Shown here one piece after another: positions 11,181 to 16,715 of a stretch of 33,627 nt of DNA. Under the pieces are notes generated by a model. It did no database searches, was not told the DNA's origin, and was given only the letters and a program-made list of their open reading frames with translations. The position numbers and the translations under genes were made by a program. The stretch comes from Daejeonella sp. (GTDB taxonomy: Bacteria; Bacteroidota; Bacteroidia; Sphingobacteriales; Sphingobacteriaceae). The stretch spans positions 1 to 33,627 of the forward strand of contig JAURKO010000141.1 of the NCBI GenBank assembly GCA_030831705.1. The letters are read 5' to 3'. Positions within the stretch are counted from its first letter, which is position 1. Each line of letters starts with the position of its first letter.

Positions 11181-11651
11181 ATGAAATTAAACATGAAATT
11201 GAAAAATCTATTCCACATATCAATAGTTATTTTGATTTTATTTAATTCTTGCAGACAGGAGACTGTTCATAATGCTACCCAGAAAAAATTGATAATCAGA
11301 TTTAATCCTGAAAGCAATTCTTTAGAATTAATCGGATTGGCTAATCATGTTATTGAGGAATTAAAATCTGATTCTCTGCCTGATTCTCTCTGGACGAATT
11401 TTTTCGCTGTTTATGAAGATTCGAATGATCCTGAAATGAGGGATTTTCAGCCGGCCACAGAAGGCGCATACACAATTGAAGGAGACCTGATTCGTTTTAA
11501 GCCAAAAATTGATTTCAGGAGGAACCAGTTGTATTTTGCAAGGTGTTACACAAAACTATTGCTACAGGATGCGGAGGATTTGATTGAAACACGCGAACTG
11601 TTTAATTCAGATGGGTTTACTGAATATAAATTCTATCTCTCAAAAAAATAA
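11181..11651 (+). CDS. Hypothetical lipoprotein
   Basis: 156 aa with signal peptide and lipobox (ILFNSC|R); no family recognised. Confidence 0.65.
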   Translation: MKLNMKLKNLFHISIVILILFNSCRQETVHNATQKKLIIRFNPESNSLELIGLANHVIEELKSDSLPDSLWTNFFAVYEDSNDPEMRDFQPATEGAYTIEGDLIRFKPKIDFRRNQLYFARCYTKLLLQDAEDLIETRELFNSDGFTEYKFYLSKK

Positions 11652-11679
11652 GATCTGTAAATGTATTGAAACCAGGTAT

Positions 11680-11709
11680 TTGTAATCACGGATAGTTTTT
11701 TTATATTTG
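11680..11709 (+). promoter_or_regulatory. Bacteroidota-type promoter (TTG-N19-TATATTTG) upstream of rimP-nusA-infB
   Basis: TTG at 11680-11682, 19-nt spacer, TATATTTG at 11702-11709, matching consensus TTG-N17-20-TAnnTTTG. Confidence 0.75.
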
Positions 11710-11722
11710 CATCGATCTGAGA

Positions 11723-11753
11723 AGAGCCCCGACATTATCGGGGCTCTTTTTTT
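11723..11753 (+). terminator. Intrinsic terminator/candidate attenuator in the rimP leader
   Basis: Perfect 10-bp stem AGAGCCCCGA / TCGGGGCTCT with 5-nt loop CATTA, followed by T6 (TTTTTT). Confidence 0.85.
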
Positions 11754-11791
11754 ACCAAATGTTTTTCATGTGGGATTTAAAAAAGATCGTT

Positions 11792-12256
11792 ATGAATATA
11801 GAAAACCGTGTAATTGAGTTAGTTGAAGAAAAAATTGCTGACCGTCCTGATTTGTTTATTGTGGATGTTCAAATGCATAATAGCGGGATTTTATCTATTT
11901 TAGTGGATGGAGACAATGGAGTTGCAATAAGTGATTGTGTCGCTATAAGTCGGCATGTAGGTTTCCATCTTGAAGAGGAAAATACCATTGAGCAAGCATA
12001 CAGACTGGAAGTTTCCTCGCCAGGAATAGATACCCCACTTAAATCAATACGCCAGTTCCGGAAAAATATTAACCGTTCATTAAAAGTTAAGCTGACAGAT
12101 GGGAACATCCGGGAAGGGAAATTGTTGAGCGCAGATGATTCTGGAATAACCATACAAGAAATTATCAAGGAAAAAGGTAAGAAAGCAGTTACGATTGAAA
12201 GTTTTATTCAAATTACAGATATATCAGAAACACTAGTTTTAGTGAGTTTTAAATAA
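11792..12256 (+). CDS. rimP: Ribosome maturation factor RimP
   Basis: Position directly before nusA; 'YRLEVSSPGIDTPLK' RimP motif. ORF track starts at 11759; ATG 11792 (MNIENRVIEL) preferred. Confidence 0.93.
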   Translation: MNIENRVIELVEEKIADRPDLFIVDVQMHNSGILSILVDGDNGVAISDCVAISRHVGFHLEEENTIEQAYRLEVSSPGIDTPLKSIRQFRKNINRSLKVKLTDGNIREGKLLSADDSGITIQEIIKEKGKKAVTIESFIQITDISETLVLVSFK

Positions 12257-12288: not shown

Positions 12289-13524
12289 ATGAGCAATATT
12301 AATTTAATCGATTCATTCCAGGAGTTTAAAGACTTCAAGAATATTGACCGTCCTACGGTTATTAGTGTATTGGAAGAGGTTTTCCGTAGCATGTTACGGA
12401 AGAGGTATGGTACCGACGAAAATTGCGATGTGATCGTCAACCCTGATAACGGGGATTTGGAGATCTGGCGTACAAGAACGGTTATGGAAGATGGATTTTC
12501 AGAAGACGATGATCTGGAAATTGAACTTGCCGAAGCAAAAGTAATTGATTCTGACCTTGAGGTTGGAGATGATTTTATTGAACAAATTACCCTTGAAAGT
12601 TTTGGTCGCAGAGCGATTCTTGCTGCCCGACAGACCTTGGTTTCAAAAATCCTGGAACTTGAAAAAGATGAGATTTTCAAGAAATATAAAGACCGTGTTG
12701 GAGAGATAGTAACTGGTGAAGTTTATCAGGTTTGGAAGAAAGAAACGTTAGTTCTCGATGATGAAGGGAATGAACTTTTATTGCCTAAAACTGAACAAAT
12801 TCCTGCAGATTATTTCAAAAAAGGCGATTCTGTCCGCGCAATCATAGAGAAAGTAGAAATGATTAATGGTAATCCAAAGATTATTATCTCTCGTACTGCA
12901 CCGGAATTCTTGCAACGTTTGTTTGAGATGGAAGTTCCTGAAATATTTGACGGACTAATAACAATCAAAAAAATTGTTCGTGAGCCCGGTGAGCGTGCTA
13001 AAGTTGCGGTTGAATCTTATGATGATAGAATTGACCCTGTTGGTGCTTGCGTAGGTATGAAAGGATCCCGTATTCATGGTATTGTTCGCGAACTCAAAAA
13101 TGAAAATATTGATGTGATTAACTTTACAAATAATATTTCATTGTATATTCAAAGAGCATTGAGTCCGGCGAAGATTACAAGCATCAAACTTGATGATGAA
13201 GAAAAGAGAGCCGCTGTTTATCTAAAACCTGATCAGGTTTCATTAGCAATCGGCCGTGGTGGTCACAATATTAAGTTGGCCGGAAAGCTTACTGGATATG
13301 AAATTGATGTTTACCGTGAAGTGCATGAAGATGATGAGGATGTGGATATCGAAGAATTTTCAGATGAAATTGAAGGATGGATTATCGACGAATTCAAACG
13401 TGTTGGCTTAGATACAGCGAAATCTATTTTAAGTTTGTCTGTAGATGAATTGGTTAAGCGTACTGATCTGGAAGATAGTACAGTGAAAGATGTGATTGAG
13501 ATTCTTAAGTCAGAATTTGAATAA
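12289..13524 (+). CDS. nusA: Transcription termination/antitermination factor NusA
   Basis: S1 and KH domains: 'DPVGACVGMKGSRIHGIVRELKNENIDVI', 'LAIGRGGHNIKLAGKLTGYEIDV'. Confidence 0.97.
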   Translation: MSNINLIDSFQEFKDFKNIDRPTVISVLEEVFRSMLRKRYGTDENCDVIVNPDNGDLEIWRTRTVMEDGFSEDDDLEIELAEAKVIDSDLEVGDDFIEQITLESFGRRAILAARQTLVSKILELEKDEIFKKYKDRVGEIVTGEVYQVWKKETLVLDDEGNELLLPKTEQIPADYFKKGDSVRAIIEKVEMINGNPKIIISRTAPEFLQRLFEMEVPEIFDGLITIKKIVREPGERAKVAVESYDDRIDPVGACVGMKGSRIHGIVRELKNENIDVINFTNNISLYIQRALSPAKITSIKLDDEEKRAAVYLKPDQVSLAIGRGGHNIKLAGKLTGYEIDVYREVHEDDEDVDIEEFSDEIEGWIIDEFKRVGLDTAKSILSLSVDELVKRTDLEDSTVKDVIEILKSEFE

Positions 13525-13640: not shown

Positions 13641-16600
13641 ATGTCAGAAGGTAAAAGCACAAATTTACTTAAAGCTGCGAAAGAGCTGAATATCGGCTTA
13701 AACACCGCGGTGGAGTTTTTAGGGAAAAAGGGTCATAAAGTTGATGCCAGGCCCAATACGAAACTCACCGAAGAGATGTACGATGTTCTTCTTAAGGAGT
13801 TTCAGGGTGATAAAATCGTAAAAGAAGAAGCTAAACAAATTGTTATTGGCAAAATTCGGCGTGATGATATTCCTGTAGGTAACGAGAAGGCTGAGCCACA
13901 GCTTTCAAAAGATTTTGAACAAGAGGAGATTCTCATCAAGAATGTTAACACATTCACTGCCCCCCTTGTTGATAAGCCTAAAGCTGAACTTCAGGAGACA
14001 GTTGATATTGAGCCTAAGCTAGAAGAAGCTGGATTGCCCGGTGTTAAAGTGGTGGGAAAGATCAATTTAGATGATTTAAATTCAAAAACCCGACCTGATA
14101 AAAAAATTCAGGAACCCGAAAAACCTAAGGTTACTCCGGCACCTGCTATAAAAATTGAGGAGCCTGTTTTCGATAAAGAACCAGAGGTAATTCCTCAGCC
14201 TGCTGCTGAAAAGGTTAAACCTGAAGTTGAAGTGGTGACTGTAGCGGAAGTCAAAGAATCCATTGAAAAGTCTGAAGAACCTGTTGAGATTCAACCTGAA
14301 ATAGCAGCAAAAAATTCAGTAACCGAAGAAAAACAAGAAAATATACCAAATACACAAGAAAGTAATCCTAATGCTACCGTCATTCGTGCGAAAGCTGATC
14401 GGTTATCCGGTCCGAATGTAATCGGCAGAATCGATTTGCCTTCCGCGCCTGCCCGTCGCGGACAGCCGGTTGCCTCTTCGTCTAGCGCAGCTGGTGCTGA
14501 TCAAAAGCGCAAGCGCAAGCGCAAGGATAATGCTCCCGGACAGCCCGGACAATCTGGAGGCCAGCCTCAACAGCAGGGACAGCAGGGTCAGCAAGGCGGA
14601 GGATTTCCTCGTCCTGCACCCGGAGCAGGTTATCAGGGTAATCGTCCTGATTTCAGGAATGCGAGACCCGGACAAGGAAATACAGCCGGTACTGGTGGTG
14701 CCCGTCCTGATTTCAGGAATAAGCCCCGTACACCTGAAGCTCCAAAAGCAGAACCAACAGATAAAGAAATTCAGGATCAGATTAAAGCAACGCTTGCACG
14801 TTTAAGTGGAGCTGGAAAATCTGGAAAATTTGCACAACGTGCTAAATTACGGCGTCAGAAACGCGATGATGTTGCTCAGACTGCAGAAGATGCGGCATTA
14901 GAAGCAGAAATGCAGTCTAAGACCATTAAAGTTACCGAATTTGTTACCGCCAATGAGCTCGCTCTGATGTTGGATGTACCTGTTACTCAGGTTATCTCAA
15001 CTTGTATGAGTCTTGGAATGTTTGTTTCCATCAATCAAAGGCTTGATGCAGAAACTCTGACAATCGTTGCAGATGAGTTTGGCTATGAAGTTGAATTTGT
15101 AAAGCCTGAAGATGAAGAGATTGGGTTGCTTGAAGAAGCTGATAGTCCTGAAGACCAATTAGCAAGAGCTCCTATTGTAACCGTGATGGGGCACGTAGAT
15201 CATGGTAAAACCTCTTTACTTGACTTTGTTCGTAAGACTAATGTGATTGCAGGTGAAGCAGGTGGAATTACTCAGCACATTGGTGCCTATGAAGTAACTC
15301 TTGAAAATGAGCGCAAAATAACTTTTCTGGATACTCCGGGTCACGAAGCTTTTACAGCTATGCGTGCCAGAGGCGCCAATGTTACCGATATTGCAATTAT
15401 TGTGATTGCTGCTGATGATAGTGTGATGCCTCAAACGCGTGAAGCTATTAATCATGCACAGGCTGCAAATGTGCCGATTGTATTTGCATTCAGTAAAGTT
15501 GATAAGCCTGGTGCCAATGCGGATAAGATTCGTGAGCAGCTTTCTGCAATGAACATTCTGGTTGAAGACTGGGGTGGAAAATATCAGAGTCAGGAAATTT
15601 CAGGTAAAACTGGAGTAGGTATCGATCTTTTACTCGAAAAAGTTTGCCTGGAGGCAGATATGCTCGAATTGACAGCCAACCCAAACAAACGTGCAGTAGG
15701 TACAGTTATTGAAGCAGCATTAGATAAGGGCCGTGGAATTGTTACAACCGTGCTTATTCAGGCCGGAACACTGCGTGTTGGTGATGCGATACTTGCTGGT
15801 GGATATAGCGGTAAGGTAAAAGCATTACATAATGAGCGCGGGGTTAAATTGGATCATGCAGGGCCTTCAACACCGGTACAGGTTTTGGGTATGCAAGGTG
15901 CACCAACTTCAGGAGATAAGTTTAACGTGATGGAAAGTGAAGTTGAAGCCCGTCAGGTTGCTAACAAAAGATTACAGTTACAACGTGAGCAGGGTTTACG
16001 TACTCAGAAACATATTACTCTCGATGAGATCGGACGTCGTTTGGCGATTGGAAACTTTAAAGAGCTGAATGTAATCGTTAAAGGTGACGTGGATGGTTCA
16101 ATCGAAGCATTATCCGATTCTTTATTGAAACTTTCTACTGAACAGATACAGGTAAATATTATACATAAATCTGTGGGTCAGATATCTGAATCGGATGTAT
16201 TGCTGGCTTCGGCTTCTGATGCAATTATCATCGGTTTCCAGGTTCGTCCATCTGCAAGTGCTCGTAAGTTGGCTGAAGCAGAACAGATTGATATCAGACT
16301 TTATTCAATTATCTACGATGCCATCAATGAGGTGAAAGCCGCAATGGAAGGTATGCTTGATCCTGAATTTGAAGAGAAAATTACTTCAAACGTTGAAATT
16401 CGTGAAGTATTCAAGATCAGTAAAGTGGGTACCATTGCAGGTTGTATGGTACTCGATGGAAAGATCACTAGAAACAGCAAGGTGCGTATTATTCGTGATG
16501 GTGTAGTTGTTTATACCGGAGAATTAGCTTCATTGAAGCGCTTCAAGGATGATGTGAAAGAGGTTGCTACAGGTTATGAGTGTGGTTTGAATATTCAGAA

Positions 16601-16670
16601 CTTTAATAATATTGAGGTTGGTGATATCGTAGAATCATACGAACAGGTTGAAGTGAAACGGAAATTGTAA
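13641..16670 (+). CDS. infB: Translation initiation factor IF-2
   Basis: 1009 aa; [29 protein letters not shown]2 domains; long low-complexity N-terminal extension. Confidence 0.97.
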
Positions 16671-16687
16671 TCGGAATAAATATTTTT

Positions 16688-16715
16688 AAAAGCGATCTAT
16701 TGGATCGCTTTTTTT
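16688..16715 (+). terminator. Intrinsic terminator of the rimP-nusA-infB operon
   Basis: AGCGATC-TATTG-GATCGCT stem (7 bp, extended by A/T) followed by a T tract, 18 nt after the infB stop. Confidence 0.85.

Follow-up and report, generated by a model that had tools for sequence, protein, structure and literature searches.

The DNA analysed here is a 33,627-nucleotide stretch from Daejeonella sp. (the window), which carries a lipoprotein gene, rimP, nusA, and infB in one direction. Ahead of rimP, a promoter leads at once into what looks like an intrinsic terminator. This arrangement raises the question of whether the hairpin controls the rimP-nusA-infB operon or serves another purpose, such as ending transcription of the neighboring gene. 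The source genome is 87% complete, and its nearest relatives are Daejeonella genomes.

Architecture of the rimP leader

The features of the locus are listed in Table 1. The −33 element TTTG occupies positions 11679–11682 (TTG from 11680) and is separated by a 19-nt spacer from the −7 element TATATTTG at 11702–11709. Experimental mapping in B. thetaiotaomicron has placed the centres of the two elements of this promoter class at −7 and −33 (PMC7366714), and by its elements the leader promoter is of this housekeeping type. Centring the −7 element as in B. thetaiotaomicron gives the predicted +1 of Table 1; with that start, an RNA terminated at the T tract would be approximately 40 nt long.

The 11-bp GC-rich stem consists of the 5′ arm AAGAGCCCCGA (11722–11732) and the 3′ arm TCGGGGCTCTT (11738–11748), joined by the loop CATTA (11733–11737). 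The T tract runs from 11747 to 11753, overlapping the end of the 3′ arm, and ends 38 nt before the rimP ATG. A preliminary description of this DNA had proposed a TTG-N19-box promoter, a T tract, a 5-nt loop, and a rimP ATG at 11792, and all these coordinates were confirmed on the sequence; its stem of 10 bp is in fact one pair longer. The 38-nt segment 11716–11753 folds at −23.2 kcal/mol (z = −7.4), which was equalled in 0 of 200 shuffles, and the inner palindrome of the hairpin occurs only once in the source genome. A stock terminator scan of the window did not list the hairpin at 11722–11753, probably owing to a stem extension that swallowed the T tract.

Table 1. Coordinates of the rimP leader and its operon in the window.
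Feature	Position	Strand	Basis
Bacteroidota primary-sigma promoter: TTTG (−33) - 19 nt - TATATTTG (−7)	11679..11709	+	sequence
Initially transcribed region; predicted TSS ~11712–11714	11710..11721	+	12 nt from box to stem
Putative intrinsic terminator/attenuator hairpin AAGAGCCCCGA-CATTA-TCGGGGCTCTT and T tract	11722..11753	+	fold, genome uniqueness, covariation
Leader remainder, predicted in read-through transcripts only	11754..11791	+	sequence; no conserved antiterminator pairing
rimP (ribosome maturation factor)	11792..12256	+	start conserved; present in 148/151 family genomes
nusA	12289..13524	+	ORF of 411 aa; aligned with 84 relatives
infB (IF2)	13641..16670	+	ORF of 1009 aa
Operon-end terminator-like hairpin	16688..16712	+	terminator scan

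An in-frame ATG is also present at 11759; it is absent in relatives, whose protein start matches 11792. In-frame stops noticed in RimP of a few genomes are the ordinary stop codons of those genes. At E ≤ 0.001, RimP was not detected in the sampled genomes of families f16 (6/6), f43 (3/3), and f60 (2/2), which are listed as 95–100% complete; the protein may be lost or very divergent in these families.

The fold of the window also pairs a 5′ CGAUC with GAUCG just ahead of the start codon. Across Daejeonella, this pairing has a mean of −5.8 versus −5.3 for re-paired controls, which reach down to −6.4. An antiterminator was therefore rejected, as the pairing of the 5′ end with the pre-start region is no better than in the controls.

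Conservation and specificity of the promoter-hairpin unit

Leaders were sampled from 80 named Sphingobacteriaceae contigs, 30 family-genome loci, and 20 more loci of the family, as well as from 48 other Bacteroidia families, represented by 60 genomes. A leader was counted when an exact TAnnTTTG box was followed within 55 nt by a stem of at least five pairs, with at least four G-C and at most one G-U, and then by at least five T in eight positions. The promoter, hairpin, and T tract were found at every Sphingobacteriaceae locus (131 of 131, with 112 distinct sequences). Outside the family, 54 of the 60 genomes have them, which covers 42 of the 48 other families. The same fixed rule found 0 of 955 dinucleotide-preserving shuffles. 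Six leaders did not match: L146, L158, L175, and L178 have a variant hairpin by eye, and none was seen by eye in L148 and L167. The TTG at the −33 position is present in 133 of 166 distinct leaders. Among the 185 leaders, the gap between box and stem is 6–29 nt (12 nt in the window), and the stem ends 11–98 nt before the start of the rimP match. The region ahead of the stem varies across the class. On this distribution, promoter and terminator are retained together as one unit. The proposal that a promoter leads at once into an intrinsic terminator before rimP-nusA-infB is thus borne out by sequence, fold, and class-wide conservation. A riboswitch, a T-box, and a leader-peptide attenuator were all rejected, since 6–29 nt from box to stem leave no room for them and the window has no Rfam match.

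In other Bacteroidota classes (L211–L230), inspection by eye revealed a hairpin and T tract just ahead of rimP in most sampled genomes. The stems there are G-first in some cases (AGTGGG..CCCACT) and C-first in others (GCCCG..CGGGC), which suggests more than one change of arm order within the phylum.

In the window, the lipoprotein gene is co-directional with the operon and ends at 11651, 70 nt ahead of the stem, as might be expected if the hairpin were merely the terminator of this gene. Such a role is unlikely, because at many loci the upstream frame is divergent from the operon; the longest upstream frame lay on the opposite strand in 33 of 70 loci scored by a crude ORF test. Moreover, the upstream neighbors belong to at least five homology groups, yet the hairpin is constant, and the TAnnTTTG box precedes it in 185 of 191 leaders. 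It is thus highly improbable that the promoter stands there by accident, with the hairpin ending the lipoprotein transcript and perhaps insulating the operon.

The combination is also specific to this leader. The control DNA of 634 kb, composed of the window, 260 kb of D. lutea, and 340 kb of a genome from another family, contains 526 TAnnTTTG boxes, 87 of which also have TTG at the −33 position. A terminator lies within 35 nt after the box in 9 of the 526, and the same distance holds for 3 of the 87 two-element promoter-like sites, all three being rimP leaders. In 50 of 197 class genomes, the palindrome GAGGGGAC-N2-9-GTCCCCTC occurs in exactly one copy per genome, as against 3 genomes for a control pattern. 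The single copy is the rimP leader in 49 of these 50 (47 via coordinates and 2 via reading the DNA) and lies away from rimP in one, G203. Of 20 genus members, 11 carry the window's own palindrome exactly once; in ten of them it adjoins the rimP coordinates, and the remaining copy is that of the window.

The string GAGGGGAC-N3-7-GTCCCCTCTTTT was also noticed in 88 viral-contig stretches (L251–L330). When 91 viral matches of GAGGGGAC/GTCCCCTC/TTTT were scored, 0 had the promoter box before them and 0 had RimP after them, and a role as phage decoys was rejected. These identical viral hairpins apparently serve as ordinary 3′ terminators and are not leaders tied to a promoter.

Covariation and exchange of the stem arms

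Stem pairs were counted by a script in the register of the structure (25 distinct stems × 8 pairs), because MAFFT alignments shifted the register. Standard pairs occupy 198 of 200 stem cells, whereas 2000 shuffles gave 143 on average and never more than 159, and double compensatory changes, i.e., G-C/C-G exchanges, occur at every one of pairs 4–8. Selection bias is small because nearly all leaders had the stem. Conservation in relatives, which had been set beforehand as a test, holds across the class, with covariation in the stem.

The 5′ arm is G-rich (GAGGGGAC/GTCCCCTC) in 154 of the 185 leaders and C-rich in 31 (17 distinct), the latter being exactly the Daejeonella lineage. In the window and this lineage, and within Bacteroidia only there, the arms are inverted, GAGCCCCGA/TCGGGGCTC. 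The earlier suggestion of a Bacteroidota equivalent with unrelated sequence does not hold, since most Bacteroidia share the G-rich/C-rich signature and the inversion is confined to the Daejeonella lineage. G056 and G067, assigned to the same genus by GTDB, retain a G-first stem (GAGGGAAC/GTTCCCTC), and stems of intermediate look with T·G wobbles (GAGTCCCG..CGGGGCTC) are also present. Inverted stems cluster strongly on the NusA tree; as its deepest forks are not resolved, one swap with reversals and more than one swap are both compatible with it. The swapped hairpins are more stable, with a median of −19.5 versus −14.7 kcal/mol for the direct ones.

Three contigs have public names that conflict with the sequence: L031 and L032, titled Sphingobacterium thalpophilum, and L042, titled Flavihumibacter soli, fall with Daejeonella by RimP, NusA, and leader.

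The NusA alignment contains six residues enriched in the inverted lineage, each of which is also found in some direct-stem species. Co-evolution of NusA with the arm swap was rejected, as no residue is diagnostic. The swap can be regarded as a natural experiment on whether the GGG/CCC signature is read by sequence, for which NusA has been proposed, or whether hairpin strength is sufficient. Across the class, the stem is conserved more than a plain terminator would require, which suggests recognition. In the Daejeonella lineage, the swap without a diagnostic change in NusA favors hairpin strength over arm sequence, so the evidence leans towards strength being what matters, at least there.

Relation to known leaders and putative mode of control

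Among the nearest counterparts is the rimP-leader, a terminator described in Firmicutes and Gammaproteobacteria (Naville and Gautheret 2010, PMC2965389). It has been called the most ubiquitous attenuator of bacteria. The preliminary description had placed it in Proteobacteria, which is correct for Gammaproteobacteria and incomplete in that Firmicutes also have it (PMC2965389). The rimP-leader is defined by its place in the 5′ UTR (4–130 nt before the first gene), its terminator form, the lack of a larger element, and GGGc(...)gCCC, and recognition of its stem by NusA was proposed by the same authors (PMC2965389). The window element likewise lies in the 5′ UTR of rimP-nusA-infB at a distance within the 4–130 nt range, consists of a hairpin followed by a T stretch, and has neither an antiterminator nor a larger conserved structure. 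GGGc(...)gCCC is present in the other 154 class leaders, whereas the window and the Daejeonella lineage have CCCCG..CGGGG. In contrast to the rimP-leader, a promoter box stands 6–29 nt ahead of the stem throughout Bacteroidia. Rfam RF01770, the Gammaproteobacterial form, gave no match in the window, and the best score among ten loci tested was 27.9 bits (L031) against a cut-off of 47. Bacteroidia leaders at large look like the same kind of element as the rimP-leader; the window element, with its arms inverted and GGGc(...)gCCC lacking, is classed as a variant acting like it. This extends a known attenuator type to the whole class and probably to the phylum, whose members include important groups of the gut and the environment. 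None of the papers searched described a rimP leader from Bacteroidota, although the supplementary lists of PMC2965389 may already include Bacteroidetes examples.

B. subtilis NusA is reported to autoregulate by stimulating termination in the 5′ leader of nusA (reviewed in PMC12288461), and a 180-nt leader has been reported for the rimP transcripts of this species (PMC2965389). Both there and in Bacteroidia, an intrinsic terminator leads the NusA operon, which encodes a termination-stimulating factor. The effect of NusA was measured on the B. subtilis leader; for the Bacteroidia hairpin, placed almost at the predicted start, NusA dependence is a prediction. NusA regulates its own operon in E. 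coli too, according to a statement in PMC6511841 that cites earlier work. In S. agalactiae (gbs0413-gbs0418), a short RNA ends 31 nt past the TSS at an intrinsic terminator before rimP-nusA-infB (PMC4448216). The geometry is nearly identical to that of the window, but the phylum is another one, and the short RNA and shared TSS, established by RNA-seq there, are sequence-based predictions here. In the main text of two B. thetaiotaomicron transcriptome papers, rimP and nusA are not mentioned.

Collectively, these observations indicate that the element is probably a transcription attenuator of rimP-nusA-infB, with NusA, by analogy, as the most likely controller. The data cover the promoter, hairpin, T tract, conservation, specificity, and covariation, and from these we infer termination in vivo and control by NusA. 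RNA polymerase would start at the housekeeping promoter, and the nascent RNA would form the GC hairpin and U tract within approximately 40 nt. Many polymerases would stop at the U tract, releasing the ~40-nt RNA, and others would read through into the genes, so that read-through would set the output of the operon. As the distance from start to hairpin is too short for a sensor RNA, control would act on the terminating complex itself. Since NusA stimulates intrinsic termination, high NusA would lower operon expression and low NusA would allow more read-through.

A real attenuator or throttle without NusA feedback, i.e., a constant promoter-proximal brake or one governed by another factor (RimP, NusG, an r-protein, IF2, or growth-rate effects on polymerase), is a less probable alternative that still carries some weight. 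NusA stimulates most intrinsic terminators of B. subtilis (PMC12288461), and conservation is therefore no specific sign of feedback. The 6–29 nt ahead of the hairpin fit no conserved sensor element, the strong class-wide conservation of the stem hints at a sequence reader, and no NusA residue cleanly divides inverted from direct lineages. Against this, of the proteins encoded in the operon, NusA is the one with a known action at terminator hairpins, and feedback by it on the operon is documented for B. subtilis and, in the statement cited above, E. coli (PMC12288461; PMC6511841).

The hairpin lies at the extreme 5′ end, its stem sequence is kept across families, and a short form is made from the same place in S. 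agalactiae (PMC4448216), all of which would also suit a stabilising 5′ mRNA hairpin or a dedicated gene for a tiny, trans-acting RNA of ~40 nt. However, a protective hairpin needs no T tract, yet the T tract abuts the stem. A trans-acting sequence fits poorly with a Daejeonella stem that is differently ordered but paired and with a pre-stem region not conserved across the class. The identical viral hairpins, which lack the promoter box and resemble ordinary 3′ terminators, also speak against both roles, which are quite improbable. Somewhat less improbable, but speculative, is a distinct form of attenuation in Bacteroidota, coupled to the promoter, with termination at about +40, near promoter escape, in which the released hairpin RNA or the terminating complex would be read by sequence. 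The Daejeonella lineage would then have re-encoded the signal by exchanging its arms, with the regulation left intact.
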